IMG/VR virus record: IMGVR_UViG_3300044729_002263 | Coordinates: 1-43,944 of that record | From: a virus | Length of the DNA: 43,944 nt | Reading direction: 5' to 3' (one strand) | In this document: piece after piece, positions 5,180 through 34,170 of the stretch | Numbering within the stretch: the stretch's first letter is position 1 | Layout: each line of letters starts with the position of its first letter | Program-made: the position numbers and the translations under genes | Notes under the pieces: generated by a model | What the model was told of the DNA's origin: nothing | Database searches by the model: none | What the model saw: the letters and a program-made list of their open reading frames with translations, nothing else

Positions 5180-6715
5180 ATGGGAGGAGGACCAAGCATT
5201 CCAGCACCGCCACCGGCGCCACCGGCACCGGCACCAATCGACTACGACAAGATGTATGAGGCCGCCACGCGCGGCGCCATCGCGCAAATGCGGGAGCAGG
5301 AGGCGCAGATCCAGCGGCTTTACCCGCAGATGACCGCGCTGCAGCTTGGCACGGCGCGCCAAGTGGCCAGTGAGCTAGACAACGAATACCTCGCCCGCAC
5401 CCGTGGCGTGCTGGGCGAAGAACTCGCTGCGGCCGGGGCGCCTTCGTCCTTTGAGTCGGACATCCAGCGGCAGGCCGCGGCCGAATTTGCCGAGGGGCCA
5501 ACGCTGGCAGATCGACAGATACAAAGCGCCGGTATGGGCGCGATGGATGTGCGGGCGGATCAAGTCTCTGGCCCTATGAATATCCGCGAGGTGTCGGCCC
5601 GCAATGTGCGCGCACAACAGGCGGCGGCGGCGCAGATGGGTCGGGTGGCCGACGTGAACGCGGTGAGCGCGCAGCGGGTGGCCGATGTGAACGCGCAGAA
5701 TGTCGAGGCCGGAGCGCTCGGCGGCGCGCTCATGCAGCAAGCGATCCAGCGGGCCAACAGTGACGGAAGGCTCTCGCCGGAGGCATCACGCGATGCGGTG
5801 CAGTCGGCGCGCGCGGGGATGGCCTCGCGCGGCATGGCCACGGGCAACGCCGGTCTGGCGGCCGAGTTGCTTAATCGTGACCGCTATGCCCGCAGCCGGC
5901 AGGCGGAAGATTTGGCCTTTGCCCAAGGCGTGCAGCAGCAGGATGTGTCACGGCAGTTTGGCAACCAAGAGGCGCAGATGCGCGCGGCGATGGCCAATCA
6001 GCAGATGGCTGGTCAAATGTCCCTCGCCGACCAAGAGGCGGCGATGCGGGCGGCGATGGCCAACCAGCAGACGGCCTTCAATACCGGACAATTCAACGCG
6101 GCCAACCAGCAGCAGGCCAATCTGGCCAACCTCGACGCCTCGATGCGTGCCTCTCTGGCCAATCAAGATGCCGGACTGCGCGCATCCTTGGCTAACCAAA
6201 ACCGCGACCAGACGCTGGGGCAGATGTTTATGCAGGCGCAGATGGCCAACCAGGCGGCGAACCAGGCGCAGCTCGCGCAGAATCGCAGCTTCATGCTTTC
6301 GGCCAACGATGCCTTCAACGCGGGCAATGATCGCCGCATGAATCTTGCCCTCGGGGCCAATCAGCTCGATCTCGCCCGCCGAGGTCGCCGCATCACCTTG
6401 GCTGAAGGTTACGGAGCGCTTGATCCGTATGCGCGAGGCATCAATTCGGCCTTCCAGCTTGGCAGCGCCACGATGGGGCAAGGAACCAGTCTCATCGGCA
6501 ACACCTTCAACAATGCGGTGCAGACCGCCGGCAACGTGGAGAGCTTCAACGCGAACATGGCGGCCAACCGCTACAATAGTTGGGCCAACAATGCGGCTGC
6601 GCTGCAAGGTGCGGGAATGCAGGCGGGAGCGGCCAGCCAAGCGGGCACTATGGGAATGGTCGGCTCCGGTGTGGGCGCCGCTATCGGCATCGCAGGCATC
6701 GGCATCGCTATCTAA
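5180..6715 (+). CDS. Internal virion (ejection-type) protein with Ala/Gln/Asn repeats
   Basis: This 511-aa protein has a proline-rich N-terminus (residues 6-19) and a long alpha-helical Ala/Gln/Asn-rich body. A repeat of the form MRAAMANQQ occurs at residues 267-275 and 289-297 with variants at 321-330 and 332-341. The C-terminal tail is hydrophobic and glycine-rich (GVGAAIGIAGIGIAI) and could insert in a membrane. Long helical, low-complexity proteins between the fibre gene and a very large virion gene are usually ejected with the DNA in short-tailed phages. Its stop overlaps the next start (TAATG). Confidence 0.6.
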   Translation: MGGGPSIPAPPPAPPAPAPIDYDKMYEAATRGAIAQMREQEAQIQRLYPQMTALQLGTARQVASELDNEYLARTRGVLGEELAAAGAPSSFESDIQRQAAAEFAEGPTLADRQIQSAGMGAMDVRADQVSGPMNIREVSARNVRAQQAAAAQMGRVADVNAVSAQRVADVNAQNVEAGALGGALMQQAIQRANSDGRLSPEASRDAVQSARAGMASRGMATGNAGLAAELLNRDRYARSRQAEDLAFAQGVQQQDVSRQFGNQEAQMRAAMANQQMAGQMSLADQEAAMRAAMANQQTAFNTGQFNAANQQQANLANLDASMRASLANQDAGLRASLANQNRDQTLGQMFMQAQMANQAANQAQLAQNRSFMLSANDAFNAGNDRRMNLALGANQLDLARRGRRITLAEGYGALDPYARGINSAFQLGSATMGQGTSLIGNTFNNAVQTAGNVESFNANMAANRYNSWANNAAALQGAGMQAGAASQAGTMGMVGSGVGAAIGIAGIGIAI

Positions 6716-7674
6716 TGGATCAACTCGTCACAGACACCTGCCGCAAGGTGGAACGCTGGCTCGCGGCCAGCGCCAACCCGGTCGTGCTCTGGAGCGGCGG
6801 GAAGGACAGCACCGCGATGCTGCACCTGATCCGCTTCAAGGTCGGCGCCAAGACGCCGGTGGTGCAGTGGCGGGAGCCGCGGTTCCGGCACCGGTATGCG
6901 CATTCGGACATGCTGGCGCAGGCTTGGGATCTGGAGGTCTACGATTGGTCGCCGATCAGCTATGCGCTGACGGACGGCTACGACATCGAGACCGGCGTGC
7001 CGCGCTTTGACTTTGTGAAGATGTATGAGATGGCGCCGCGGAAGGTGATGTTCCTTTGCCTCGGCACCGAGGAGCCGCAACCCGAGGAGCTGGCCAGCGG
7101 ACGGTATCTGTGCGGGCTGGACGCGCTCAAGCGCCCGACCGGGACGTTCAATTTTCCTTGGGACAGTGCGTTTCACGGCCAAAAGAGCGCCGACGTGGAC
7201 TTGATAAAAGGCCAAGTGCCGCTGGCGCAGGACGCCTTGGTGCAGGCCGGCGTGCCGACCCAATACTATCCCATGCGCCATTGGTCGGATGCCGACGTGT
7301 GGAATTACCTTGAGGCGGCCGGCGTGCCGAACGACGAAACCCGCTACGAGAAGGCGGACGGCGTCTGGAGGCACCGCAAGGACAAGAGCGCCAACAGCGA
7401 CTACTACCCGGTCTGCTGGAACTGCATCAACCGGCACTTGGGCGAGACGGTATACTGTCCTAAGAACTCATGCGAGACGAACAACATCAGCTCTCTGGCG
7501 CCCTACATCGACCTACAATCGGAAGCGCAGGGCTTCCGCCCGACGTGGCAAGATTCGACTGTGAACGGTGTGGGGCATGCTGCTCTCACAAGTGGAGCTG
7601 GCCCGTCCTACGACGAGACCGCTCCGACGCTGCTGCCATCCCGCCATGGATGCTGCGCACCGACTACCCTTTGA
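6715..7674 (+). CDS. PAPS-reductase-like PP-loop ATPase (CysH/DndC superfamily)
   Basis: This 319-aa protein carries the PP-loop LWSGGKDSTAML (SGGKDS at residues 27-32), which binds the pyrophosphate of ATP or PAPS, and a C-terminal Cys cluster C234-x2-C237-x10-C248-x4-C253 that probably binds zinc or an Fe-S centre. HWSDADVWNYLE (189-200) is typical of phage and DndC-like members. I start it at the ATG overlapping the previous stop, since the upstream open stretch lies inside that gene. After about residue 278 the sequence looks unlike protein (QDSTVNGVGHAALTSG) and a second frame becomes coding (next entry). It sits among virion genes although it is an enzyme. Roles could be sulphur assimilation or sulphur modification of nucleic acid; the substrate cannot be told from sequence. 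Confidence 0.8.
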   Translation: MDQLVTDTCRKVERWLAASANPVVLWSGGKDSTAMLHLIRFKVGAKTPVVQWREPRFRHRYAHSDMLAQAWDLEVYDWSPISYALTDGYDIETGVPRFDFVKMYEMAPRKVMFLCLGTEEPQPEELASGRYLCGLDALKRPTGTFNFPWDSAFHGQKSADVDLIKGQVPLAQDALVQAGVPTQYYPMRHWSDADVWNYLEAAGVPNDETRYEKADGVWRHRKDKSANSDYYPVCWNCINRHLGETVYCPKNSCETNNISSLAPYIDLQSEAQGFRPTWQDSTVNGVGHAALTSGAGPSYDETAPTLLPSRHGCCAPTTL

Positions 7675-7839: not shown

Positions 7840-8265
7840 ATGTTTGCATTTGACCCAGGAGTGAATGACGAGAGCGGCCAGATCCTTGGCAAGTATGGAG
7901 TGATGGCGGCCCAAACCACCGCCGATGCCAATGTGAAGCTGGTGGACAATATCGGCAGCGCGCTAGTCGGTCTTGCTGGAATGTATGCCGGCAGCGTGGA
8001 AAAAAAGAATGCGCTCAAAGGTATGGACAGCGCCGTGGGGGCCATGGCCGATGCAGGCGCGCTGCCCAAGGGATTCCTCAATCAATACAACCAGCTCGAC
8101 GACACCACCCGGCCGTTTGTTTTTGAGGCCATTGCTTCGCCCATGTTTAAGTCCTTCAACGCTGGCCAGTCTGCCGCTGCGCAGGCGCAGGCTTGGGATC
8201 AATACAAAAACAAATGGGGTTCAAACGCCGGCGGTGGTGGTGGCGCCATGCCCTTTACCTACTAG
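7840..8265 (+). CDS. Hypothetical virion-associated protein
   Basis: This 141-aa protein has an excellent ribosome site (AGGAGG 9 bases before ATG). It is alanine/glycine-rich with a mildly hydrophobic helix (NIGSALVGLAGMYAG) and a Gly run near the C-terminus (NAGGGGGAMPFTY). No family recognised. It lies between internal virion genes, so a small ejected or connector protein is likely, without direct evidence. Confidence 0.6.
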   Translation: MFAFDPGVNDESGQILGKYGVMAAQTTADANVKLVDNIGSALVGLAGMYAGSVEKKNALKGMDSAVGAMADAGALPKGFLNQYNQLDDTTRPFVFEAIASPMFKSFNAGQSAAAQAQAWDQYKNKWGSNAGGGGGAMPFTY

Positions 8266-8842: not shown

Positions 8843-11800
8843 ATGGCATACAACCCAGCAGACTTTGAGCTTGTCGAGACACCGGCAGGCTCCGCTTCTC
8901 CCTACAATCCCGCTGACTTTGAGTTGGTGGATGATGGGCAGACGGGGCTATTGGAGGGTGTTGGCAACGCGCTGGAGCGCGGGTGGTCTTTGAGCCTCAT
9001 GGCGCGGGAGATGGAGAAACCCATGCCCGACCCGCAGGCGGTCGCCGCTTTGCAGCAACGCATGCAAGCCGTGCCGCCGTCGCCGGAATACATGGCGACA
9101 ATGAATGATGAGCTGGAGCCGGTGGAAAGCTGGAGCGCCTTCAAGTCTGCCCCGGTCAAGGTGCTGGCCGAACTCATGGGCGAATCGCTCTCGGCATTTG
9201 CGGGGCAGATGATCGACAAGGCCCCGAACCGCGTGGCCATTGGCCTCGGTGCCGGTGCGGCCATGGGCGCCCCAGTCGCTGGCATAGGCGCCGTTCCCGG
9301 CGGATTCATCGGCGCGGGCGCAGGGTTTGCCGAGTCGGCCGGCGCTGCCAGCTATGCGCTGGAGATGGCTGGCGGGGTGCTGGAATCTTTGGAGAGCGCG
9401 GGTGTTCCCCTCAATGATCCGCAGGCACTCTCCGTTGCCCTGCAAGATCCGCAGCGCATGCAAGTCGCCCGCGAATTTGCCCAACGCAAAGCCGTGCCGG
9501 TCGCCGTGTTCGATGGTGCCAGCGCCGTGATCGGTGGACGTATGTTCGGCGGCGGCAAGGTGGCCTCGGCTATGACCCGCCTTGGCCAAGGACTGGCCGA
9601 GACCTTCACCCAAGGCGCTATGGGTGCGGCCGGCGAGGCCAGCGGTCAGCTTGCCCAAAGCGGCGAGATCACCAGCGGTCGCAGCATCTTGGCCGAAGGT
9701 GTGGCCGAGCTGCCCACGGGACTCATCGAGATCGGGGCCGGTCAACTTTCCCAAGCAGGCGCCAATGCCGGTGCCCCTGCCGCCACGGCTACCGCGCAAC
9801 CCGCCCCCGCTGCCGCCCCCCAACCCGCCCCCTTCACTCCCCCACCCGCCGCTGAGACGGTTGTGGTTGAAGAAGTCTTTGGCGATGCGACCACGGCAGC
9901 CGCGCCCGCAGAGGAAGCTGCCCCTGCTGCCGAACCCGCCATCAACCCCGATGACTTTGAGGTTGTCGAGATGCCGGGGGAGACGATTGTGACGGAGCCG
10001 CCGGCTGCGCCCCGCAAGATTTTCCGTGGCGTATCGCCCGACGTTGACTACTCAAGCGGCGATCAGTTCTGGTCCGAGAGCCGTGAGGTGGCCGAGAACT
10101 ATGCCGCGCAGACTGGCACTGAGGGCACCATTGACGAGGCTACGCCGGACACGTTGCCGCAAAACCTTTACACTGCCACCGACAAGCCCACGCTGAAGGA
10201 CGAGCTTGAGCTAAAGAGTGAACCCTTCGCCCCAGAGTTTGACGCCGAAGCCAGGACCGTCTTGCAGGCGCGCGGCTTTGAGGGCATCCGCTACGATTCG
10301 GGCACTGACTTGGGCGGGGAGCAGGCGACAGAGTTTCATGTGTTTGGGAAAAGCCCAAAGCCCACAAGCGTCCCGCCCAAAGCGCAAAAGCTGAAGGCTA
10401 AATTGGCGAAACTGGACCCCATGTTTGCCGATCAAGGATTCTGGCAAGGCTTTGAGCAAGGCGGATATAACGACCAGAAGATCCAGCAACTTGAAGGCAT
10501 GGTCGCCAACTTCTCCAAGCCCAAGCAGCCCGCGCCCAAGACGGCCAAGGGCAAGGCCGCCCAAGCCTCTCCCATCGCCGACATCTGGGAACAGTATGAC
10601 GGCACTGGCGAGATTGATAGCGTGGGCGCATTGGCCGATGCGGTCGAGTCGTATGCCGCAGAAACCGGCGATACCACATTGACCGACGCTGTTGCCGAAT
10701 ACCGCGCCAACCGGATGGAGGACCGCAGCGAGTTTGGTGATCGTGGGGAGAGCGGATACTCGGATGCTTTTGTGGCGAAGGTGCAGCAGGCGGCCAAGCA
10801 GCCCGCAGCGCAACCGGCGGCGGCGGCAACTCCATCCTTCGCCGAAGACTTGCCGCAAGCCAAGGCCGTCAAGGATGCCCGTGGGCGGTCTGTGGTGGTA
10901 ACTGAGGCTAACGCCAAGAAAATGTCAGACGAGAAGGTGATGACGAGCTACGCCGTCTTCGCAGACACAATGATGCGGGCAAGGGAGGCGGGACAAGACA
11001 TTGACCCTGTTGTCCGCGTCAATGCTGCCACCGTCTACCAAGAGGGGCGCCGCAGGAACTTGGTTCCGCAAGAGCCGTCCATTGAGGCTTACTTGGGGAC
11101 GCAACCCCAAGATTCACCAGCCCAAAAGTCCCGCCGCCGCATCAAAAACATGACCGCCCAAAGCGGCGCGATTGACCTCTCCATCGTCGAAGACTTGTTT
11201 GAATACGGCAAGACGATCTACCGCGCCGGCATGAGCTTCGGCAAGTGGGCCGGCCAGATGGTCAAGGAGTTTGGCCAGGGCATTGCTTCGTTTTTGAAAC
11301 AGGCGTTTGACCGCATCGTCCAAGCCTACAAGGACAGTCCTTACAGCGACACGACCGGAGCGGTGGGCGATGTGCGGCCGAAGGCCAAGCCGCGGCAGTT
11401 TGAGCAGAAGGCGGCACAGGCGCCGGGGCTGGATGCTGAGACCCGCGCGCAGATGGGCAATGATCCGTATGTGCCGATCACCTTGCGCGGGGTAGCCGAG
11501 GATGCCAAGGCATGGCTGGCAGAGAACGGTGTGGAAGCAGCCGAGCGGCGGATCTTGGAGCTGAACAGCGAAGAGACCACGCCGACCCCGCTAGACTTTG
11601 GTATTGGCTTGGAGTTGACGGCCAACCTTTCTGCCACCGGCCAGCATGCCCGCGCCGCTGCGGTGGTGCGCACCATGAGCCGCCGCGCCACCAGCTTGGG
11701 GCAGACGATCAGCACGCTTGCCATGCTGTCGCGCCTCACGCCGGATGGCATTGTTTTCTACGCTAACCAGACCATCGAGCAATACATCGGGAGCCTGCCG

Positions 11801-14368
11801 CCGGAACGTCAGCAGCAGATCCGCACAGCACAGGATGGCATTCGCCAACTGGAGACGGACATTGCCACGACCCGTAAGCGCACGGCCGAGGACGCAATCA
11901 TCAAGGGCGAGCAGGGCGGCGAGAAGATCCAAGACAAACTCAAACGCCGCATCCCCGACAAGACGCAGAAGCAGCAGACCAATGTGAGCATCCGCTCGGT
12001 GCTGACGAGCCAAGCAACCAAGGCCGAAGCGACCAAGCAGATCACGCAGATCCTAGTGGACAGCGGCATCAGCCAGAGCGAAGCCACGGCACTAGCCACG
12101 GCCATCACCAACCGTTTTTACAAGGTGCTGGAGGATGCGCGCAAAGCCGCCGCCGCCAACCGCCGGCCGGCCTCGGGCAAGGGGCGGGTGACGTTTGATA
12201 AGTTGATGGCGCAACTCAAGGACGGGAAGGTCAGTGACCAAGATTTTATTGGTGCCCTTGCCCAGCTTGCCGGCGTGCCGGCATTGACGCCCGAGCTGCG
12301 AACCAAGTTGGAGAACTTGACCCGCCAATACAAGGCGGCCACCGACGACGACATTGCCTTGGTAACGGGCGCCAGAATCTTTGAGGAGGTTCACGGACTA
12401 ATCCCCGCCGACTTCTGGGTGAAGCTGCGCGCGGTGAGCTACCTCTCCATGCTGTTCGCCCCCAAGACGTGGATCAGAAACTTGGGCGGCAACCAGATTC
12501 AATGGCTGACAGACATTGGGATCGACAGCGCCATCAGCATGGTCTTCGACCCTATCGCCAGCGTTTTTACCGGCAAACGAACCACGGCCGGCGTGTATGT
12601 CGGCACCAGAATCAAGGCCCTGCTGACGCCGGTGCAAGATGTTATCAAGGGCTACAAGTGGAACGCGCAGCAAAACCCCAGCGCCAACTTTATGGAAAAC
12701 CTCGGGGCGGGTGTTGAGCATTTGCGCGTGCTGGCCAAGCTGACCACGCAAAACAAGTTCGACATTGTCGATGCCAAGGAAGTCGGCCGGAGGATCTTTA
12801 GCAACAAATTCATGCAGATGTGGGAGGGCGCACTGTCCATTGCTTTGGGCGGCGGCGACCGTGCGTTCTGGATGTCGGCCTTTCGCGCGTCTCTGGCACG
12901 GCGCGAGGCGGCGGCCAAGAAGAACGGCGAGTGGACCGGCCAACCGACACCGGAAGATGTGGAGGCAGCCTACGCTGACGCCATGTATGCCATTTACCAG
13001 AACCCCAACGTTCTCAGTAAGAACGCCAACAAGATCCGACAGGCACTCAATCGTTTGGCCACGTTCGGCAAGACAGATCAATTTGGGTTGGGCACGGGAC
13101 TGATGGCCTTTACGCAAGTGCCGGGATCGCTTTCGCTGCGCGGCATTATCGAGATGTCGCCGCTGGGGCTGGTCACGGCGCTCTATGAGGCAATGCGCCC
13201 GGTGCTATTCAAGGCCAGCGGCGGACGAGTCGGTGGACAATTCCGCCAAGAGGACTTCAACAAGGCATTGTCTCGGGCCATGGTGGGCAGCGGCATGTTT
13301 TACGCTGGCGGTTACTGGCTATACTCCGTGGGCGTCATCACGGCCAGCCGCGAGGAGGACGATGACTTGGAGGCAATGCGGAGGGCTTCTGGCATGGGAG
13401 CCTACCGTATCAATGCCTCAGCGCTCAAGCGTATGCTGGGCAGCGGCAACTTCTTTGAGCGGCAGACACCACAAGACGGCGACCTCATTATGTCCTACGA
13501 CTGGGCGCAGCCGGTCGCTATCACGTTCGCCGCGGGAGCCGAGCTGGCTAAACAGGTAGAGCAAAACAGCCGCGAAGGCGTGAAGAAGGGGCTGGCGGGC
13601 AAGGCCAATATGGTGGCGATTAGTTTGGCCGCTGGAGCGAAGTCGCTGGAGGAATTGCCATTGCTCTCGGGGTTGTCGTCCTTTGCCAGAACGTGGGGAT
13701 ACAGCGATTTTGTCACCGCGGCCTATGGCACCATCGCCGGCATGCCCTCCATGTTTGTCCCGCAGCTTGTGCGGCAGGCCAACCAGCTCATGGACAACAC
13801 GGTGCGAGAGACCCGCTCGGGCGAAGGGGTGTTCCGTGCCTTCAACCAGATCGCCGCCAACACCCCCGGTGTGGCCGACCAATTCCCGCCGCGCATGGAC
13901 ATCATGGGGCAGGCCATTGATCGCTACCAATACGGCAGCAACAGCTTTTTCAACGTGCTGACCAACCCCGCCATGACCAGCCGCGTGCGCACCAACCCTG
14001 TGCTCAACGAGGTAACGCGGCTCATGGAATCCACCGGCGAAGAGCGGCAGATCCCCCGCCAAGTGAAGCGCACGGCCACGATCAACGGCGAGTCGATCCA
14101 ATTAAGCAACGAGCAGATCAGCGCCTACCAGTATTACTTGGGCAACTACACCATGAGCATGATGCAATGGCGCATGGCCAGCCCCCGCTACGCGCGGCTG
14201 CCGGACACCGAGAAGGTGCGCATCCTCGCCCAAGACATTGAGGATGTGGACGCCGCCACCAAGTCCGCCCTCTTCGGCCACGACATCCGCCGGCTGACCC
14301 GCCGCCAGCGGGTGATGCGCAACAACCTGGTCAACTCTCCCCTCGGGCAGTCGATGCCCCCGCGCTAA
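8843..14368 (+). CDS. Giant internal virion protein with ADP-ribosyltransferase-like domain
   Basis: 1841 aa, the largest gene. It opens with two copies of NPADFELV (residues 4-11 and 22-29); a third form, NPDDFEVVE, is at 368-376. Residues 130-160 are a glycine-rich hydrophobic segment and 305-365 are Ala/Pro-rich linker. Residues 390-505 look like an ADP-ribosyltransferase of R-S-E type: IFRG (Arg395), QFWSESREVAENYA (Ser411/Ser413) and EFHVFG (Glu497), preceded by GFEGIRYDSG. The body to about residue 1150 is mostly helical with long charged stretches. The last 650 residues contain several hydrophobic helices (near 1210, 1280 and 1480) like other large polyvalent phage proteins. It is probably packaged and ejected into the host, which would deliver the enzyme domain at infection. 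Gene boundaries are firm; the transferase call rests on motifs only. Confidence 0.75.
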   Translation: MAYNPADFELVETPAGSASPYNPADFELVDDGQTGLLEGVGNALERGWSLSLMAREMEKPMPDPQAVAALQQRMQAVPPSPEYMATMNDELEPVESWSAFKSAPVKVLAELMGESLSAFAGQMIDKAPNRVAIGLGAGAAMGAPVAGIGAVPGGFIGAGAGFAESAGAASYALEMAGGVLESLESAGVPLNDPQALSVALQDPQRMQVAREFAQRKAVPVAVFDGASAVIGGRMFGGGKVASAMTRLGQGLAETFTQGAMGAAGEASGQLAQSGEITSGRSILAEGVAELPTGLIEIGAGQLSQAGANAGAPAATATAQPAPAAAPQPAPFTPPPAAETVVVEEVFGDATTAAAPAEEAAPAAEPAINPDDFEVVEMPGETIVTEPPAAPRKIFRGVSPDVDYSSGDQFWSESREVAENYAAQTGTEGTIDEATPDTLPQNLYTATDKPTLKDELELKSEPFAPEFDAEARTVLQARGFEGIRYDSGTDLGGEQATEFHVFGKSPKPTSVPPKAQKLKAKLAKLDPMFADQGFWQGFEQGGYNDQKIQQLEGMVANFSKPKQPAPKTAKGKAAQASPIADIWEQYDGTGEIDSVGALADAVESYAAETGDTTLTDAVAEYRANRMEDRSEFGDRGESGYSDAFVAKVQQAAKQPAAQPAAAATPSFAEDLPQAKAVKDARGRSVVVTEANAKKMSDEKVMTSYAVFADTMMRAREAGQDIDPVVRVNAATVYQEGRRRNLVPQEPSIEAYLGTQPQDSPAQKSRRRIKNMTAQSGAIDLSIVEDLFEYGKTIYRAGMSFGKWAGQMVKEFGQGIASFLKQAFDRIVQAYKDSPYSDTTGAVGDVRPKAKPRQFEQKAAQAPGLDAETRAQMGNDPYVPITLRGVAEDAKAWLAENGVEAAERRILELNSEETTPTPLDFGIGLELTANLSATGQHARAAAVVRTMSRRATSLGQTISTLAMLSRLTPDGIVFYANQTIEQYIGSLPPERQQQIRTAQDGIRQLETDIATTRKRTAEDAIIKGEQGGEKIQDKLKRRIPDKTQKQQTNVSIRSVLTSQATKAEATKQITQILVDSGISQSEATALATAITNRFYKVLEDARKAAAANRRPASGKGRVTFDKLMAQLKDGKVSDQDFIGALAQLAGVPALTPELRTKLENLTRQYKAATDDDIALVTGARIFEEVHGLIPADFWVKLRAVSYLSMLFAPKTWIRNLGGNQIQWLTDIGIDSAISMVFDPIASVFTGKRTTAGVYVGTRIKALLTPVQDVIKGYKWNAQQNPSANFMENLGAGVEHLRVLAKLTTQNKFDIVDAKEVGRRIFSNKFMQMWEGALSIALGGGDRAFWMSAFRASLARREAAAKKNGEWTGQPTPEDVEAAYADAMYAIYQNPNVLSKNANKIRQALNRLATFGKTDQFGLGTGLMAFTQVPGSLSLRGIIEMSPLGLVTALYEAMRPVLFKASGGRVGGQFRQEDFNKALSRAMVGSGMFYAGGYWLYSVGVITASREEDDDLEAMRRASGMGAYRINASALKRMLGSGNFFERQTPQDGDLIMSYDWAQPVAITFAAGAELAKQVEQNSREGVKKGLAGKANMVAISLAAGAKSLEELPLLSGLSSFARTWGYSDFVTAAYGTIAGMPSMFVPQLVRQANQLMDNTVRETRSGEGVFRAFNQIAANTPGVADQFPPRMDIMGQAIDRYQYGSNSFFNVLTNPAMTSRVRTNPVLNEVTRLMESTGEERQIPRQVKRTATINGESIQLSNEQISAYQYYLGNYTMSMMQWRMASPRYARLPDTEKVRILAQDIEDVDAATKSALFGHDIRRLTRRQRVMRNNLVNSPLGQSMPPR

Positions 14369-14457: not shown

Positions 14458-14892
14458 TCATGGCTGCTGGATTGGCTCTGTATAGTAAATCGGTTGGCTG
14501 CGAGTGTCGATAATCGGCGGCGCTGCGGGGAACATGGGGCGGTTATTGCCGCCGAACTGCGAGACGATGGTGGTGTTCCCCACTTGGCTGGCCATGGTTA
14601 CGCCGCTGCCTCCTGTGCCAGTGACAATAACTGGAGCCGGTGGCGGTGCAAAGTTTTGCGCCATGGCTTGATTAAAGACGGTCGGATCAAACGCTATTGT
14701 CGCCGGCTTGCCGTCTGGCATGACCCAAGGATGGCCGGACCCAAAGAAGCGGGTTCCCTTTGGCACCCATTTGCCATCCTGCGTGCGGACTAGCCCTTTG
14801 GCCTCCATCCTTGCGGCTTTTTGTTGCGTTGTTTCACAGCCCGTGGCAGCCATCACCATGGCGGCGGCGAGTGTTAGTGGTAGCAGTTTCAT
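14458..14892 (-). CDS. Lipoprotein coupled to the integrase gene (candidate lysogenic conversion gene)
   Basis: 144 aa starting MKLLPLTLAAAMVMAATGC: a signal peptide with lipobox ATGC and lipidated Cys19. I chose this ATG because the open frame upstream lies inside the integrase gene, while the ATG has a ribosome site (ACAGGAGCC) and overlaps the integrase stop as ATGA. The mature part has DGKWVPKGTRFFGSGHPWVMPDGKPA followed by a Pro-rich, Gln/Asn-rich tail. No domain recognised beyond the lipoprotein signal. Co-expression with the integrase suggests it is made early or in the lysogen, where a surface lipoprotein could change the envelope or exclude other phages (inference). Confidence 0.8.
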   Translation of the reverse strand: MKLLPLTLAAAMVMAATGCETTQQKAARMEAKGLVRTQDGKWVPKGTRFFGSGHPWVMPDGKPATIAFDPTVFNQAMAQNFAPPPAPVIVTGTGGSGVTMASQVGNTTIVSQFGGNNRPMFPAAPPIIDTRSQPIYYTEPIQQP

Positions 14893-16040
14893 ATTATTGG
14901 CTCCTGTTGAAATGCCGCCGGCATGACTACGGCTTTCTGCCATGTGGCATACCATCGGCTTGTTGTGGTCGGGGTGCTGTGCCCGAGAAGGTGTTGCACT
15001 TGGCTGATCTGGCCGGTGGCTTCCAGCCAATCGGAGCCTGCTTGCTTGCGCAATTCGTAGGCCGCCCCCTTGCGGTCGGGGATGTGGGTGCGCAGCCAGA
15101 GGTTGAATACGCGCAGGATGTATTGATAGCGCAGGTTCGGAGTGTGCAGCGGGATCAAGTAGTCGTCGGCTTTGAGCAGGGCATCGGCCATCCATGGTGC
15201 AATGACAATATCCCGCTCGCGCGCCCCGCCTGTCTTTAGGGAGAAACCCTCCTCGGGACGCTCGCGCACACACATGGCCTTGCCTTGCGGGCGGTCTTCG
15301 ATCCAACCCTTGCGGGCGAAACTGACCTCCTTCGGCGTCATGCCAAGATACCGGCAGCAGATGAAGGCACGGCGGCGGGTCTCATCGGCGCGGCTCTCCC
15401 GCTCCATGGCGGCAAGAATGTCCTTGGGGATGTGCTTAAAACTGTTGGGATTGTATTTCTGCTTGGCCTCCTTGGAGGCATTGAGAAAGCCCGAGATGTC
15501 GGGAAGCGGGAAGCCGACCCAGTCCTTTGTGCGGGCAAAGACGGCTTTGGCGCCGGCCAGCGTGGTTCCCTTGGTGTAGGTGGCAACCTTGTCGGCCCGC
15601 TGATAGTCCACGGCAAGCTGGGCGGTCAATTCGGTGGCGCGGACGGCCATCACCTTGGCCTTCTCGGATGCGGTCATGGTGCGCTCGCCCTCGGTGATCC
15701 AACCCTTCGCCCTGGCGATGACTCGGAGCAGGGCGTTTGAGTTCTTCTTGTGTGTCATGCAGTCCGTCACCTTCTCGTAATGCTCGATGATCTGGCCAAT
15801 GGTCGGGGCCGTATCGCGCAGGGATGCAGCCTCTTTGAGCTTGGCGAGACCTTGCTCACCAAGAATAGTGAGGTAGGAAATGGCTTTCGCTTTTGCAACT
15901 TTGGCTTCGGTCGTCTTGAGGCTTACCCGCTTCAGCATTTTATCTGCCGTGAAGCGCAGCCACCAATGGTCCCGCCGCCAAAAGCAAGTGCCTCTCACGC
16001 CAAACTTCGGGACTTCAACTCGGAAGGATTCGGTATTCAT
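14889..16040 (-). CDS. int: Tyrosine recombinase, phage integrase
   Basis: This 383-aa enzyme would integrate the phage DNA at a host tRNA gene. An N-terminal arm-binding-like part (1-80) and core-binding helices (80-195) precede the catalytic domain. Visible catalytic elements are Lys269 (FSLKTGG), Arg331 (AYELRKQAGS), His354 (LLGHST) and the nucleophile Tyr364 (TTTSRWYA). The position where most family members have the first Arg (TGLR) reads GMTPKEV (Thr235), and the usual His before Arg331 is Tyr328, so two of the usual residues are changed or displaced. The start at 16040 lies about 120 bases from the tRNA-like attP core and next to two TGGTGTCAA repeats, so Int binding may also autoregulate it. 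Confidence 0.9.
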   Translation of the reverse strand: MNTESFRVEVPKFGVRGTCFWRRDHWWLRFTADKMLKRVSLKTTEAKVAKAKAISYLTILGEQGLAKLKEAASLRDTAPTIGQIIEHYEKVTDCMTHKKNSNALLRVIARAKGWITEGERTMTASEKAKVMAVRATELTAQLAVDYQRADKVATYTKGTTLAGAKAVFARTKDWVGFPLPDISGFLNASKEAKQKYNPNSFKHIPKDILAAMERESRADETRRRAFICCRYLGMTPKEVSFARKGWIEDRPQGKAMCVRERPEEGFSLKTGGARERDIVIAPWMADALLKADDYLIPLHTPNLRYQYILRVFNLWLRTHIPDRKGAAYELRKQAGSDWLEATGQISQVQHLLGHSTPTTTSRWYATWQKAVVMPAAFQQEPII

Positions 16041-16057
16041 AACGCCTCAATATGGGG

Positions 16058-16077
16058 TGGTGTCAAAATGGTGTCAA
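16058..16077 (+). promoter_or_regulatory. Pair of integrase arm-type site candidates (TGGTGTCAA x2)
   Basis: TGGTGTCAA occurs at 16058-16066 and 16069-16077, same orientation, 11 bases apart (one helical turn), just upstream of the integrase start. A third copy lies on the other side of the tRNA-like core at 16266-16274. Three identical 9-mers flanking an att core within 220 bases fit arm-type integrase binding sites; they could also be an operator for int. Confidence 0.6.
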
Positions 16078-16156
16078 CTTTTGATTAGCACCACCATGGG
16101 TTCTTGTGGTTTAATGTGGCACATAAAAGATCAATATACAGAGAAAACCTTACTTT

Positions 16157-16197
16157 GGGGGTGTAGCTCAACGGTTAGAGCAGGCGGCTCATAATCG
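16157..16197 (+). other. attP: attP core candidate: 5' half of a tRNA-Met(CAU) gene
   Basis: The bases match tRNA positions 1 to 38 or slightly further: acceptor strand GGGGGTG, TA, D-arm GCTC-AACGGTTA-GAGC, then GGCGG and anticodon loop CTCATAA with anticodon CAT at 16190-16192. After TCG the sequence departs from a tRNA: no T-arm and no CACCCCC acceptor strand follow. It lies beside int and between arm-type repeats, so I read it as the identity block shared with the host tRNA gene. Unlike most phages it carries the 5' half, so a lysogen would rebuild the tRNA downstream of phage DNA. Confidence 0.7.
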
Positions 16198-16265
16198 TGA
16201 GACGAAAAATCGAGGGCGTTTGTTTTACTCTGTAAAATATCTTTTGTGATACGTCGTGTTACAAG

Positions 16266-16274
16266 TGGTGTCAA
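16266..16274 (+). promoter_or_regulatory. Third arm-type site candidate (TGGTGTCAA)
   Basis: Exact third copy of the 9-mer found twice at 16058-16077, on the far side of the tRNA-like core. The surrounding stretch 16198-16349 holds no convincing gene. Confidence 0.5.
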
Positions 16275-16349
16275 GATTTGTGCTTTCGGTGGGTATGGCG
16301 GCCATCACTTGCCGGCCATTTTCGTGGCGTCACGAAATTGGTCCGGCGA

Positions 16350-16378
16350 AAGGGAGAGGGCGATTTGCCCCCTCCCTT
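16350..16378 (-). terminator. Terminator-like hairpin after the minus-strand operon
   Basis: AAGGGAGAGGGC (16350-16361) pairs with GCCCCCTCCCTT (16367-16378) through 12 pairs with one G-U wobble around a 5-base loop. It lies 14 bases after the stop of the last gene of the minus-strand small-gene operon, so it should insulate the att region from it. A strong T-run is absent. Confidence 0.6.
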
Positions 16379-16391
16379 GTGAGCTGCGGCG

Positions 16392-16541
16392 CTATATCAC
16401 GATAAGGTGTTTTTTGGCCCAATCCTTATTGATGCCACCCTTCTCGATGATGAGTCTCTTTAGCTTGTCGGCCTTCGTTTCCGGCGCCCTGCCCTTGGCG
16501 GGCTTGCGCGCGGTCTTCCGTTTCTTGGGTGCAGCGGCCAT
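16392..16541 (-). CDS. Small basic hypothetical protein
   Basis: 49 aa, starting MAAAPKKRKTARKPAKGRAP and ending KGGINKDWAKKHLIVI. The Lys/Arg-rich N-terminal half suggests nucleic-acid binding, and the C-terminal half has a short helix. I start it at the ATG that overlaps the preceding stop (ATGA) and follows GGAGAAGTG; an in-frame ATG 15 codons upstream lies inside the neighbouring gene. Last gene of the minus-strand operon. Confidence 0.6.
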   Translation of the reverse strand: MAAAPKKRKTARKPAKGRAPETKADKLKRLIIEKGGINKDWAKKHLIVI

Positions 16542-16894
16542 CACTTCTCCAGCGCTGCAATCACAGCGCGGGCGCGGCCTAGCCATTCGTTAAACTTCGG
16601 GTTGTCTAGTTGCTCTGGCGCGGCGTCACGCGACCCCTCGGCGAACTCTGCCAATCGTTGCAGGACGGCCAGCGTCTCTTGTTTGCTCGACGGATCGGCC
16701 ACTTTGACCGGCTCATAGCTCCAACTATCGCATTCCGGCATGCGCCTAACCTTCCAGCGCTTTGCCTTGGCGTGTTCTCTGGCCTTGGCTTGTGTGGCAA
16801 ATGCCTTGGTGGGGATTGTGTCGCCCCTCCATGTGGACAAATACCATTGGCCGTCTTCGGCCTTCCATAGCATGACTGTTGTGTCGTTTTTCAT
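16541..16894 (-). CDS. Hypothetical protein, small accessory gene
   Basis: 117 aa starting MKNDTTVMLWKAEDGQWYLS, with ribosome site AAAGGAGACAC directly before the ATG. The N-terminal half reads as a small beta sheet with aromatic residues (LWKAEDGQWYLSTW) followed by a basic helix (FATQAKAREHAKAKRWKVRR); the C-terminal half is helical. No family recognised. Its upstream boundary carries the repeated GCGGCCATCAC element. Confidence 0.65.
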   Translation of the reverse strand: MKNDTTVMLWKAEDGQWYLSTWRGDTIPTKAFATQAKAREHAKAKRWKVRRMPECDSWSYEPVKVADPSSKQETLAVLQRLAEFAEGSRDAAPEQLDNPKFNEWLGRARAVIAALEK

Positions 16895-16992
16895 GTGTCT
16901 CCTTTGTATAGATGGTGCGGCCATCACCGGGTCAGCATGTTTGCCGTCCGTTCCGGCCTCTGCCCCCATTGGACAAAGGCCGGTGTCGGGCG

Positions 16993-17439
16993 TCAAGCGG
17001 CCATCAGATATAGCTTTTCTGCATTGTATCCCCTTCTCCTGTGCCGGGCCGGCAAGAAACAGACGCCGATAACCTCTCTAACAATGCGGCCTTTCTTTTC
17101 TTGGCCATTGATTAGAGCAATGGCCTTCTTGCCGACCATTGACTCGTCGCACCCCTTGTTCCACCCCAAGCTAACGAGGCGGCGGTGTTCTTTGCGCTGC
17201 AAGTAGCGCTGGTGAACCTCGTTCGCGCAATAAGCAAGGAAGGAATAGGGCGCGATATCGCTAGACTCCGGCTCTCCGTCTCCCGCCCGCAAGATGCGGG
17301 CAACTTCTGAAACATAAGAGCATCCTCGGTGGCGTTCAACTTTTCGGCGCGCGCGCATGGTGTGAAGATTAAACGGAGCCTTTGCAAAATCTTCTTTGAT
17401 GTTTTGCGCGTCGATGTTCCTGCAATATGTGGGTTTCAT
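16993..17439 (-). CDS. Hypothetical protein, basic, Cys-containing
   Basis: 148 aa starting MKPTYCRNIDAQNIKEDFAK, with ribosome site AAAGGAGACACA. It is rich in Arg/Lys and His (MRARRKVERHRGCSY, RYLQRKEHRRL) and ends LMAA, where the end of the gene coincides with the repeated boundary element of this operon. No domain recognised. Confidence 0.6.
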   Translation of the reverse strand: MKPTYCRNIDAQNIKEDFAKAPFNLHTMRARRKVERHRGCSYVSEVARILRAGDGEPESSDIAPYSFLAYCANEVHQRYLQRKEHRRLVSLGWNKGCDESMVGKKAIALINGQEKKGRIVREVIGVCFLPARHRRRGYNAEKLYLMAA

Positions 17440-17458
17440 TGTGTCTCCTTTCTGTGCT

Positions 17459-17752
17459 TCAAGCGGCCATCACTGGCTCGTTGGTTATTTTGGCGATTAG
17501 CTCGATTGCCTCGGTAACGTCCGGCAGCTCGGCCTCGTCGTCGTTCATGTAGTCAACAAGGCCCCCGGCCAAGTTGTTTAGCGCCTCTAACAACTCAGGC
17601 GCGGCGGCCAGCAGGCGCGCGTCTGCCTCGCCATCATAGGCAAGGGCCACGGTCTTGCCGGTTGCCTCAGAGGCAATCGCGCTTTGTCCGTGTGTTTCGT
17701 GTCCGGCCGTTGGCTGTGAATACCATGGCCCCGGTGTGTGTTGTGTTGTCAT
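17459..17752 (-). CDS. Small phage protein of the HTPGPW type
   Basis: 97 aa starting MTTQHTPGPWYSQPTAGHET and containing ARLLAAAPELLEALNNL. Proteins with HTPGPW and AxLIxxAPELLEAL occur widely in phages and prophages; their function is unknown to me. A paralog lies at 18803-19135. Ribosome site ACAAAGGAGACACAT. It ends PVMAA at the repeated boundary element. Confidence 0.8.
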   Translation of the reverse strand: MTTQHTPGPWYSQPTAGHETHGQSAIASEATGKTVALAYDGEADARLLAAAPELLEALNNLAGGLVDYMNDDEAELPDVTEAIELIAKITNEPVMAA

Positions 17753-17860
17753 GTTATGTGTCTCCTTTGTATGTGTTTGGCGGCCATCACTGGCCGGGAT
17801 TGCGTTTTGCTCTCCGTGCTGCCCACGGCGAACCGTGGACAGATGCGGAACTCATGCGCG

Positions 17861-18031
17861 CTACATGCTGCGAAACATTTCCTCCACAACCTTTTGCCGG
17901 ATGTCTTCAAGCATGTATTCCGCCTCAAGGTCGCTGTAATCGTCGAACCCTTGAGCGCATTTAATGAACTCCTTGCGGCGTTCATTAAGAAACCACGCAA
18001 GGATGTCGGCCTCTGCAAACTCAAGCGTCAT
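17861..18031 (-). CDS. Small acidic hypothetical protein
   Basis: 56 aa starting MTLEFAEADILAWFLNERRK and ending EEMFRSM, probably one or two helices. It has a strong ribosome site (AGAAAGGAGACCA) located inside the end of the upstream gene, with which it overlaps by 11 bases. Supported by operon spacing and base composition rather than homology. The stretch 17753-17860 after it holds only the repeated boundary element and an unconvincing 22-codon frame. Confidence 0.65.
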   Translation of the reverse strand: MTLEFAEADILAWFLNERRKEFIKCAQGFDDYSDLEAEYMLEDIRQKVVEEMFRSM

Positions 18032-18197
18032 TGGTCTCCTTTCTGTTTGTTGTTAGCCATTCTCTGACCTTGGCGGCCATCACTGCCCACCAGGGCAACT
18101 TGGCGCGCTTCGCAGCCAGCGCTTGCCAGTAGATCGGCCAGCAAATAAGCGGCCGGTCTCCGTGGTATTCTGTAACAGTCGGGCGGCCGGTGCTCAT
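18021..18197 (-). CDS. Small hypothetical protein, Trp-rich
   Basis: 58 aa starting MSTGRPTVTEYHGDRPLICW and ending EWLTTNRKETNDA, with WWAVMAAKVREWL near the C-terminus. The start overlaps the preceding stop as ATGA; the frame remains open upstream but within the neighbouring genes. The repeated GCGGCCATCAC element falls inside this gene. Function unknown. Confidence 0.6.
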   Translation of the reverse strand: MSTGRPTVTEYHGDRPLICWPIYWQALAAKRAKLPWWAVMAAKVREWLTTNRKETNDA

Positions 18198-29673: not shown

Positions 29674-29876
29674 TCCACGAATTTGCCCGCACCTTCCCCG
29701 TCTGGACGCCGCACGGCTACGGCTGGCCGATCTATGTGCAGGCCATGAGCGGCTTCGCCAACGACATCTGGTGCGTGGCCGCCGAAGACGGCGGGCATGT
29801 GAGGCACTACCGCTCGGACCAGTTGCAGGTTTTGCCGAATGGGACGTTGGATATTGAGGAGGACGCGAGTGAATGA
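29670..29876 (+). CDS. Small hypothetical protein before the methyltransferase
   Basis: 68 aa starting MIHEFARTFPVWTPHGYGWP. It reads like a small SH3-like beta fold (WPIYVQAMSG, NDIWCVAAEDGGHVRHYRSDQ). Its last codons contain GAGGAGGACGCGA, the shared ribosome site of the two overlapping genes that follow. Function unknown. Confidence 0.6.
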   Translation: MIHEFARTFPVWTPHGYGWPIYVQAMSGFANDIWCVAAEDGGHVRHYRSDQLQVLPNGTLDIEEDASE

Positions 29877-30597
29877 GCTGGCTCTTTTCGCGGGCGCTGG
29901 TGGCGGAATACTCGGAGGCAAGCTCCTTGGGTGGAACACCGTCTGCGCCGTCGAATACGACGCTTACGCCGCCAGCGTTCTTGTGGCGCGACAAAACGAC
30001 GGATGCTTGGAACCGTTTCCCGTCTGGGATGACGTGCGAACCTTTGACGGACGGCCGTGGCGAGGAATTGCTGAAGTCGTTTCTGGCGGATTTCCATGCA
30101 CCGACATCAGCGTTGCCGGGAAAGGCGCGGGCATCGAAGGCGAAGAAAGCGGCCTCTGGTCCGAAATGGCCCGAATCATTGGCGAAGTGGGACCGCGATA
30201 CGTCTTCGTGGAAAACAGCCCAGCGATTGTTGTTCGCGGACTCGGTCGAGTGCTTGGAGACCTTTCCGAGATGGGGTTTGATGCGCGCTGGGGAGTTATT
30301 GGCGCAGACGCCTGTGGATTTCAACATCACCGAGCCAGATTTTGGCTGGTTGCCCACGCCGATAGCAACAGACGGCAAGGGCGGAACGACGACTATTCGC
30401 AAGGATACTGGGAAGCAGCGAACGGATCAGCTTCGCCACTACGTCAAGATCCGCTTTGGCGTCATCTATCCGAATCCGAACTGGCTCGACAAAGTTATGG
30501 GATTCCCGACCGGCTGGACCGCACTCGATGCGCTGGAAACGCCCAGGTGGCACCAGTGGCTGCGCTCGCATGGCGTCTGCTCGGCGGACCCCGATAG
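29869..30597 (+). CDS. C5-cytosine DNA methyltransferase (short form)
   Basis: 242 aa from the GTG at 29869, preceded by AGGAGG. Motif I ALFAGAGGG (4-13), motif IV GGFPCTDIS with catalytic Cys77, motif VI FVENSP (Glu115), motif VIII region FQHHRARFW (152-159) and motif X GNAQVAPVAALAW near the end. The target-recognition region (about 165-215) is very short for a Dcm enzyme. It would methylate phage DNA, protecting it from host restriction or altering regulation. The whole gene is overlapped in another frame by the next entry. A longer frame from 29839 overlaps the previous gene and lacks a better site. Confidence 0.9.
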   Translation: MNELALFAGAGGGILGGKLLGWNTVCAVEYDAYAASVLVARQNDGCLEPFPVWDDVRTFDGRPWRGIAEVVSGGFPCTDISVAGKGAGIEGEESGLWSEMARIIGEVGPRYVFVENSPAIVVRGLGRVLGDLSEMGFDARWGVIGADACGFQHHRARFWLVAHADSNRRQGRNDDYSQGYWEAANGSASPLRQDPLWRHLSESELARQSYGIPDRLDRTRCAGNAQVAPVAALAWRLLGGPR

Positions 30598-31211: not shown

Positions 31212-32857
31212 GCGACAAGAAATCAACGCCACGCTCCCGCTTCACCCCGACACCGCATCCGGTGATGAAGCTCCCGCCCAAGGACGTGCTCTTGGCCATC
31301 GGGCCAGAGAAGGGCTGGGATCTGCTGCTCAAGCGCGAAGAACTAATCCTCAAGGAAAAGGTCGACCCTTACCGCTACGGCTACCGTCCGCCGATCTGGA
31401 ACAAAGCCAGCGAACTTCTGGAGCAGCACAGGGAGATACTTGTCATGGGCGGCAACAGGTCCGGCAAAACCGAATGGGCCGCACGCGAGGTCATTCATCG
31501 GCTATACCACAAAAAGCAATCCGTCGCTTGGTGCTTCCAGACGACCGCCCCCAACAGCATCGAGATGCAACAACCCCGCGTCTTCAAGTATCTGCCGGCC
31601 GACTGGCGGCAGGCGCGCAAGGGCACGGTGACAAATATAACATATTCGGTTAAAGGGGGTTTTACAGAATCCAAGTTTGTCGCCCCCAACGGCAGCCAAT
31701 GCGTTTTTCGCAACTACGCACAGGACATCAGCACCATCGAGGGCGGGGAGATTGACATTGCATGGTGCGATGAGTTGGTGCCGCTGGATTTCTTGGAAAC
31801 CCTGCGCTTCCGCCTGCTCGACCGCAACGGCGTGCTCATCGTCACGTTCACCCCTATTGAGGGCTACTCCCCCACGGTCAAGGACTACCTCACGGGCGCA
31901 AGTGCCGTGGAAGAAGTTGACGCCGAGCTGCTTCCTAAGTTTGAAGATCGCCAAGGCGAGAAGGTCATTGTCGGCTACGAGAAAGTGCCCATCGTCCAAT
32001 CGGGGCGCAAAGGACGGCCGATTATTTACTTCCAGACCAAAGGCAATCCTTGGGCCGGATGGGAGCGCATGCAACAAGAGCTACGAAACGAGACGCGAGA
32101 GAAGATCCTTTGCCGCGCGTATGGCGTCCCGACTCGCTCGATCAACAACCGCTTCCCCCTGTTCAACGACAAAGTCCACGTCATCAAGCATGAGTGGATT
32201 CCCAAAGAAGGCACCCGCTACCAGTTTGTCGATCCGTGTTCCGGAAGGAACTGGGCGATGATCTGGGCGCTATTCGACAAAGCCAACCGCTGCTTTATTT
32301 ACCGCGAATGGCCCTGTCCTAACGAGTATGTCGAGGGCGTTGGGTATCCTGGCATGTGGGCCGAGCCGGACGGCAAGAAGGCGGACGGGCGCCAAGGCCC
32401 CGCGCAAAAAGACTTTGGCTTCGGGCTGGAACGCTATGTCGAAGAAATCCGCCGCGTAGAAAACGGCGAGCGCATCTTTGAGCGCTGGATGGACAGCCGC
32501 TATGGCAACGCGCAGACCTTGGCCAAAGAGCGCCCGACCACACTGATCGAAGAGATGGGCGACCTCGGCATGGACTTCACCGCCACGCCGGGAGACACGA
32601 TTGATGAAGGCGTTGCCCTCATTAACGACTGGCTGCATTACGACACGCAGAAGCCGATCAGCGCCCTCAACCAGCCCAAGCTCTACATCAGCGAAAACTG
32701 CCAGAACCTAATCTGGTGCATGAAGGAATGGACCGGTGCGGACGGTGCCAAAGGCAGCAGCAAAGACTTCCCTGACTTAGTTCGCTACCTTGTTCTTTCC
32801 GGCTGTAACAACGTCGAAGGCGACATCCTGCGCCCGCGTGGAGGAGGGAGCTATTGA
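31208..32857 (+). CDS. terL: Terminase large subunit
   Basis: 549 aa. ATPase domain: Walker A MGGNRSGKTEW (GGNRSGKT at 81-88), Walker B IDIAWCDEL (Asp188, Glu189), VTFTP coupling motif near 213. Nuclease domain begins at YQFVDPCSGRNWAMIWAL (Asp342), with further acidic positions around WMDSRYGN and the C-terminus. It is the packaging motor and headful/cos cutter acting at the portal. I begin at MSDKKSTPRS, whose ATG overlaps the preceding stop; the frame is open for about 96 codons upstream, but that lies over the preceding genes. No small subunit is recognisable beside it. Confidence 0.9.
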   Translation: MSDKKSTPRSRFTPTPHPVMKLPPKDVLLAIGPEKGWDLLLKREELILKEKVDPYRYGYRPPIWNKASELLEQHREILVMGGNRSGKTEWAAREVIHRLYHKKQSVAWCFQTTAPNSIEMQQPRVFKYLPADWRQARKGTVTNITYSVKGGFTESKFVAPNGSQCVFRNYAQDISTIEGGEIDIAWCDELVPLDFLETLRFRLLDRNGVLIVTFTPIEGYSPTVKDYLTGASAVEEVDAELLPKFEDRQGEKVIVGYEKVPIVQSGRKGRPIIYFQTKGNPWAGWERMQQELRNETREKILCRAYGVPTRSINNRFPLFNDKVHVIKHEWIPKEGTRYQFVDPCSGRNWAMIWALFDKANRCFIYREWPCPNEYVEGVGYPGMWAEPDGKKADGRQGPAQKDFGFGLERYVEEIRRVENGERIFERWMDSRYGNAQTLAKERPTTLIEEMGDLGMDFTATPGDTIDEGVALINDWLHYDTQKPISALNQPKLYISENCQNLIWCMKEWTGADGAKGSSKDFPDLVRYLVLSGCNNVEGDILRPRGGGSY

Positions 32858-34170
32858 TGAAGGTTTCCCGCGGCGACTGCCTAGAGGTCTTGCGCACCAT
32901 GCCCGACGCCAGCGTGGATTCCATCGTCACTGATCCGCCCTACGGCCTGAGCTTCATGGGCAAGCGCTGGGACTATGACGTGCCAAGCGAAGATATATGG
33001 CGCGAGTGTTTGCGGGTGCTCAAGCCGGGAGGGCATTTACTGGCGTTTGCCGGCACTCGCACACAGCACCGCATGGCCGTCCGCATCGAGGATGCGGGGT
33101 TTGAGATTAGGGACATGATTGCGTGGGTTTATGGCAGCGGGTTTCCGAAGTCGCTGGATGTAAGCAAGGCGATTGATAAGGCGGCTGGCGCGGAGCGCGA
33201 GGTTGTTGGGACAAGAACGGACGGCAGGGGGAAGTCTCATCAAAAGATCAATAATCACGGCCAAGGTGATACAGGCATCGGACACGCCGATGGCTCGAAA
33301 CAAACATATTGCGAAACCGCGCCAGCCACCGAATCCGCCCGCCAATGGCAAGGCTGGGGCACCGCCCTAAAGCCCGCGCTGGAGCCGATCACCGTAGCCC
33401 GCAAGCCGCTTATCGGCACCGTGGCCGCAAACGTGCTGGAGCACGGCACTGGGGCGCTGAATGTGGATGGGTGCAGGGTGGATGGAGTAGTCACGACAAA
33501 CCCACTTGTCCGCAATGTCGGCGGATTTGGAAGCGGCGGGCCTTCGAATCAAACACACCCGCCAAAGAGCGTTGTGTCGCAAGGCCGCTGGCCCGCCAAC
33601 CTGATTCACGACGGCAGCGACGAGGTGGTGGGGTTGTTTCCGCAAACTGGCGTATCAGCGGGAGGAAGGTCTGGTCACACAGCGGCGTATTCTGGCGGAT
33701 TCAAGCAAGAGCATTACGGTGACGCCAAGCCGGGTTTTGGAGATTCCGGCTCTGCCGCCCGCTTTTTTTACTGCGCCAAGGCAAGCAAGAAGGATCGGGA
33801 TGAGGGGCTTGATATGTCGCCCGACCGGTTTATGGCGGCAAGCAATCAAGCGCAAGCACAGCTAAAGCGTGGGATTATCCATGAAGCTGAAAGCGGTGTT
33901 AATACGGTCAAGGTTCGCAAAAATAATCACCCCACGGTCAAACCCACCGCGCTCATGCGCTACCTCTGCCGCCTCGTCACGCCGCTCGGCGGCACTGTGC
34001 TTGATCCCTTCATGGGCAGCGGCAGCACTGGCAAGGCGGCTGTGCTGGAGGGCTTCAACTTTGTCGGCATCGAACGCGAGGCGGAATATGTGGAGATCGC
34101 CAAGGCGAGGATCGCGGCGGCGGAAGCGAAGCGCGGTGAGATGTTGCCGATGGAAGTGGAGGCGGCATGA
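32857..34170 (+). CDS. DNA methyltransferase (N4-cytosine/N6-adenine type)
   Basis: 437 aa with AGGAGGGAG before the ATG and a TGATG overlap with terminase. Motif IV IVTDPPYGLS (DPPY at 26-29) comes first and motif I DPFMGSGSTGKA (about 383-394) last, the beta class order, with HPTVKPTALMRYL between. The middle (about 120-340) is Gly/Asn-rich, unusually long and probably contains the target-recognition region. It would modify phage DNA alongside the cytosine enzyme. Same family as many orphan phage methyltransferases; no partner restriction gene is visible. Confidence 0.9.
   Translation: MKVSRGDCLEVLRTMPDASVDSIVTDPPYGLSFMGKRWDYDVPSEDIWRECLRVLKPGGHLLAFAGTRTQHRMAVRIEDAGFEIRDMIAWVYGSGFPKSLDVSKAIDKAAGAEREVVGTRTDGRGKSHQKINNHGQGDTGIGHADGSKQTYCETAPATESARQWQGWGTALKPALEPITVARKPLIGTVAANVLEHGTGALNVDGCRVDGVVTTNPLVRNVGGFGSGGPSNQTHPPKSVVSQGRWPANLIHDGSDEVVGLFPQTGVSAGGRSGHTAAYSGGFKQEHYGDAKPGFGDSGSAARFFYCAKASKKDRDEGLDMSPDRFMAASNQAQAQLKRGIIHEAESGVNTVKVRKNNHPTVKPTALMRYLCRLVTPLGGTVLDPFMGSGSTGKAAVLEGFNFVGIEREAEYVEIAKARIAAAEAKRGEMLPMEVEAA

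Follow-up and report, generated by a model that had tools for sequence, protein, structure and literature searches.

Positions 16058-16274 of a linear, 43,944-bp IMG/VR virus record (IMGVR_UViG_3300044729_002263), analysed over its whole length and called the window here, are read with a probability of roughly 0.9 as the attachment site (attP) of a temperate phage infecting Chthoniobacter-like Verrucomicrobiota, whose anticodon-loop core would be recombined with the host elongator tRNA-Met gene. The site carries the 5' half of a tRNA-Met(CAU) gene next to a tyrosine-recombinase integrase gene (int). The identity block GGGGGTGTAGCTCAACGGTTAGAGCAGGCGGCTCATAATCG (16157-16197, plus strand) corresponds to nucleotides (nt) 1-41 of the tRNA, stops in the anticodon stem, on its 3' strand, and is identical at 41 of 41 positions to the elongator tRNA-Met of three Verrucomicrobiota loci (L025, L026, L027); the number of exact 41-mer matches to a tRNA set expected by chance is ~1e-17. 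No complete tRNA was detected in the window by ARAGORN or Rfam.

The integrase gene (14889-16040, minus strand, 383 aa) adjoins the site, with 116 bp between its start and the tRNA block. Its product matches phrog_1 (E 2e-14) and, weakly and under the cut-off, Pfam PF00589. The family alignment A1 shows conserved R, K, ELR, LLGH and final Tyr motifs; the HxxR box of the phage integrases is YELR, with His replaced by Tyr, and reads HELR in the distant relatives L105 and L107 (alignment A2). The core is flanked on both sides by putative arm-type repeats, as in the attP of tRNA-targeting tyrosine recombinases. The repeat TGGTGTCAA occurs twice on the int side (16058-16066 and 16069-16077, 11 bases apart from start to start) and once on the far side (16266-16274), all on the plus strand, and neither strand of the window holds a fourth copy; of 5000 Markov sequences, 15 contained a 9-mer three times within 217 bp. 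GTGTCAA-type repeats are found at the int-side position in relatives, and the far-side copy is kept in L003, L004 and L006 and degenerate in more distant ones. An imperfect inverted repeat on the plus strand, with its left arm at 16122-16147 (CATAAAAGAT, TACAGAGAAAA) and its right arm at 16224-16248 (TTTACTCTGTA, ATCTTTTGTG), is centred on the core at 16185-16185.5, just ahead of the anticodon loop; an equal score was reached at 0.16% of window centres, and its CTCTGT/ACAGAG element recurs in relatives. The initial annotation had described a tRNA-Met(CAU) 5' half beside the integrase, with the repeat twice on one side and once on the other, and both parts of that description hold. The ACAGAG/CTCTGT theme is also present, as TTTACTCTGTTAAT and TCTCTGTAAAC, ahead of tRNA-Met in two host loci, L043 (genome G057) and L046 (genome G038), whose integrases are not detectably related to that of the window.

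Conservation among related phages provides further evidence. Two scans of IMG/VR recovered 12 relatives with integrases 60-100% identical to that of the window, among which the L005 contig begins too near int to display the site and the L024 int is partial. A tRNA 5' half lies at the same place in 11 of the 11 relatives whose record includes the site, a set that is not fully independent (around the site, L002 is the same as the window; L024 is almost the same as L009, and L011 and L012 are close). The block derives from tRNA-Met in eight of them (L002, L003, L004, L006, L007, L008, L009 and L024) and from tRNA-Arg(UCU) in three (L010, L011 and L012), and that of L010 matches Chthoniobacterales tRNA-Arg genes over nt 1-40. 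In the tRNA-Met phages measured, the near-identical L002 excepted, the block shares 97-100% identity with that of the window, compared with 21-75% for the flanks. Because the block is kept while the flanks diverge, and is swapped for tRNA-Arg in one branch, what is conserved is a tRNA 5' half as such rather than one particular sequence. A pattern scan of IMG/VR for the block returned only the phages already found, with no complete tRNA in the DNA fetched.

A search of GTDB species genomes for the exact 41-mer identified the corresponding host gene, for which the initial annotation had proposed to look. The 41-mer is present in three genomes, all metagenome-assembled genomes (MAGs) of Verrucomicrobiota (Chthoniobacter flavus, a Chthoniobacterales bacterium and an uncultured Verrucomicrobia), and in each it falls within a complete elongator tRNA-Met called by ARAGORN. 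A full tRNA-Met query gave one match in each of the three at E<=0.001, and the gene seems to be single-copy in these hosts, with MAG incompleteness as a caveat. A T/C variant at tRNA nt 20 is present in phages and hosts alike, and a Chthoniobacter-like Verrucomicrobiota is the probable host of the phage. In the closest Chthoniobacter-like hosts (L025, L026, L027, L037-L042, L044, L045, L049 and L065), a DUF520/YajQ gene (yajQ) begins no more than ~30 bp after the tRNA, and the two are probably one transcript. In most of the closest hosts, the conserved DNA ahead of the gene contains TTCAAG-N17-CATNCT ~11-13 bp upstream of the tRNA, which is probably the tRNA-Met promoter.

Insertions of this kind are seen at the same tRNA-Met in host genomes, made by other elements. 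In a Chthoniobacterales MAG (G066, locus L067), a displaced 38-nt 5' half at 8227-8264 stands behind the conserved host upstream DNA and is followed by a 2,210-bp element with an integrase open reading frame (ORF) at 9326-10384 (minus strand; PF00589 above cut-off). After the element comes a complete tRNA-Met at 10475 and then yajQ, so that the intact tRNA is preceded by element DNA. When the two flanks are joined, ~250 bp align, with 78-84% identity, to the upstream-tRNA-yajQ region that six other genomes have in uninterrupted form, and no second full-length tRNA-Met was seen in G066. In G057, int and the rebuilt tRNA-Met share a contig, and the displaced nt 1-38 are found on a second one; G038 has an integrase-like fragment adjoining the 5' end of tRNA-Met. 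A proposal that 5'-type insertion is chosen to keep tRNA-Met together with yajQ was set aside, since the same layout occurs without yajQ in G057 and G038.

These observations suggest how the present phage would integrate. In four host elements, the displaced 5' halves stop at tRNA nt 38-39, and identity between phage and host extends to nt 40-43; strand exchange is therefore most likely at the anticodon loop, and the overlap region is predicted to be CTCATAA (tRNA nt 32-38, 16188-16194, plus strand). The integrase would recombine this core in attP with the same core in the host tRNA-Met. Since attP holds tRNA nt 1-41, the host promoter would stay with a useless 5' half at one side of the prophage, followed by phage DNA, giving a predicted junction of host upstream DNA and 5' half continuing into 16198 onward. 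At the other side, the phage 5' half and the host 3' half would form a tRNA-Met of full sequence, with phage 16041-16194 predicted to join ...TCGCTTGGTT of the tRNA 3' half. Ahead of this rebuilt tRNA would lie 116 bp of phage DNA, preceded by int, which reads away from the tRNA. Should the tRNA gene be essential, its transcription would have to be driven by some element in the phage DNA.

The nature of that element bears on the proposal of the initial annotation that an essential host tRNA comes under prophage control. The promoter search combined consensus matching with an E. coli-type matrix. A promoter-like site for int (TTGACA-17-CATATT, 16049-16077, minus strand) overlaps an arm repeat and matches the consensus at 10 of 12 positions; the site is weak, with 1 found against 0.5 expected in shuffles. 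No promoter reading into the block was found above shuffles in the gap between int and block, in a test of low power that real host promoters also fail; locus L104, a distant integrase relative, alone reached p 0.05. The placement of a tRNA behind element DNA is shown for other elements; regulation of the tRNA by the prophage is therefore hypothetical. It may be that the site is used with no control at all, the host promoter being replaced by readthrough or by a promoter that is constitutively active in the gap between int and tRNA. This account, to which we lean somewhat, is compatible with the attP assignment and competes only with the functional claim. Neither a regulated promoter nor an operator was found between int and tRNA, and hosts with such a layout exist, one full-length tRNA-Met being seen in G066. 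Against it, the rebuilt tRNA of pTN3-type elements is expressed from the integrase promoter, according to a review (PMC8371274).

Several searches weigh against use of the site by the present phage. No close relative of the window integrase was found in 213 order-level genomes, 384 class-level genomes or a scan of GTDB contigs, in which integrase patterns matched 40 stretches and yielded 0 relatives; the same genomes and contigs revealed no lysogen or junction of this phage. The initial annotation had proposed to look for prophages whose integrase end abuts the tRNA; none of this phage appeared, and the rebuilding of the tRNA behind element DNA is documented for distant relatives of the integrase and for other elements at this tRNA. 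For the integrases of G066 and G057, no relation to that of the window was detected. The lack of a lysogen in the genomes searched, together with the block not being a complete tRNA, would suit a remnant left by the decay of a tRNA gene once captured, which lies beside int by chance and does not serve integration. All relatives, however, hold the block at about the same distance from int, the tRNA-Met phages keep it at 97-100% identity while their flanks diverge, and one branch carries the 5' half of another tRNA with the same end point, so that a remnant is very improbable. Least probable of all is the tRNA-dependent lysogeny known in actinobacteriophages (PMC10865867), in which integration breaks the tRNA and a complete phage-borne tRNA complements it: with the 41-nt block the host sequence is complete again, and the absence of a complete tRNA (ARAGORN, Rfam) excludes this for the record, barring a tRNA-Met gene on a missing genome end.

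Searches with the integrase profile in genomes of the class (384), the phylum (388) and the order (213) identified distant relatives of the attP-adjoining integrase, with 25-32% identity where compared. Most have no tRNA nearby. In seven loci, a complete tRNA at the start of int has its 5' end facing int (L104 and L108, Ser; L106 and L155, Lys; L129, Arg-UCU; L132, Pro; L135, Arg-ACG). Two of these have a displaced 5' half ~45 kb away, nt 1-38 for L106 (genome G156, tRNA-Lys) and nt 1-39 for L129 (genome G663, tRNA-Arg); for the other five, the contig stops before any displaced 5' half. A displaced 5' fragment upstream of an intact tRNA with int between is thus present in G066, G156 and G663, and on two contigs in G057, in each case through an element other than the present phage. 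The genes of the L106 element encode restriction-modification (type I restriction specificity), helicase and reverse-transcriptase-like functions, a content that indicates an island and not clearly a prophage; this 5'-type island of ~45 kb in tRNA-Lys(CTT) lies at G156:C58 (L114-L116). Five loci are of the 3' type: L105 (Thr), L107 (Val) and L130 (Ser), each with a displaced 3' half, and L147 and L165, in which int stands beside such a half. The last two had been candidates for the 5' type and were rejected, because ARAGORN had called the displaced 3' tRNA half as a gene.

The Islander survey counted 159 5'-fragment islands among 3919 (4%) and 3760 of the 3' type (PMC4383910), which agrees with the initial annotation that 3'-half sites are the norm. 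Set against this background, 7 versus 5 loci, which are non-independent and of which five 5'-type cases are unproved, suggests an enrichment of the 5' type in the integrase family. Parsimony on the integrase tree gives three 5'/3' changes, the order of which the tree does not settle, and the 5'-type arrangement may have a single origin. That 5'-half sites are common in a Verrucomicrobiota integrase family, whose carriers routinely transcribe an essential tRNA (here the apparently single elongator tRNA-Met, and yajQ where the two adjoin) from mobile-element DNA, so that host viability hinges on an element promoter and possibly on prophage state, is a tentative and, on present evidence, rather doubtful generalisation.

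Elsewhere in the window, genes for a terminase, a major head protein, an O-like initiator, a DnaB-like helicase, RusA, an endolysin and a tail fibre are present. The first 25 kb of the phage gave zero megablast matches among 50,697 phage records, and a 1841-aa ORF at 8843-14368 (plus strand) has no PHROG match. Three further plus-strand genes, at 6715-7674, 29839-30597 and 32857-34170, comprise an ORF resembling phosphoadenosine phosphosulfate reductase and two genes for DNA methyltransferases. Beyond the far-side repeat, GTGATGGCCGC occurs six times in 1.8 kb (16298-18083), on the minus strand only, and several copies stand just ahead of a AAAGGAGA-like ribosome site at gene junctions. With one mismatch allowed, GTGATGGCCG has 17 occurrences in the window against 5.7 expected, and a GTGATGGCCGC-type repeat is also found beside attP in relatives; it is possibly a phage regulatory repeat.

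If the phage integrates as proposed, tRNA-Met and yajQ would be separated from their conserved upstream DNA in the closest hosts. As the target is apparently the sole elongator tRNA-Met gene, the phage-host pair would offer a direct test of prophage takeover of essential tRNA expression. For an uncultured phage group, one short sequence also identifies the probable host, much as that of the marine metagenomic Verrucomicrobia phage group G11 was assigned through an exact attP-tRNA match (PMC3861242). Verrucomicrobiota phages and islands join the rare set that rebuilds a tRNA from its 5' half, and the use of either half by relatives opens the switch to study within one family.

The 5'-half site is real and rare, and it has precedent, so that the principle itself is not new; a limited literature search found no earlier report of 5'-half integration in Verrucomicrobiota. 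With the canonical 3'-half attP of mycobacteriophages (PMC10865867), the present site shares a tyrosine integrase, an anticodon-loop core, arm-type repeats on both sides and a ~40-bp block beside int; it differs in holding the 5' half, which would place the host promoter and the rebuilt tRNA at opposite prophage ends. Anticodon-loop overlaps are described for other tyrosine recombinases, and 5'-half integration is seldom met in bacteria (PMC8371274). The archaeal pTN3-type integrases, as described in that review, which cites Cossu et al. 2017, likewise use a tRNA 5' half with a swapped promoter. Their gene is split by integration into int(N) and int(C), whereas the present attP lies outside the int coding sequence (14889-16040, with the block from 16157) and would leave int whole, unlike the suicidal pTN3 type. 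A close counterpart is the 5' class of Islander (PMC4383910), in which the tRNA regains its 5' part from the element, the block ends at the anticodon stem-loop, a 5' fragment is displaced, and crossover at the anticodon loop defines one of two site classes; unlike those islands, the present phage is known from free phage DNA only.
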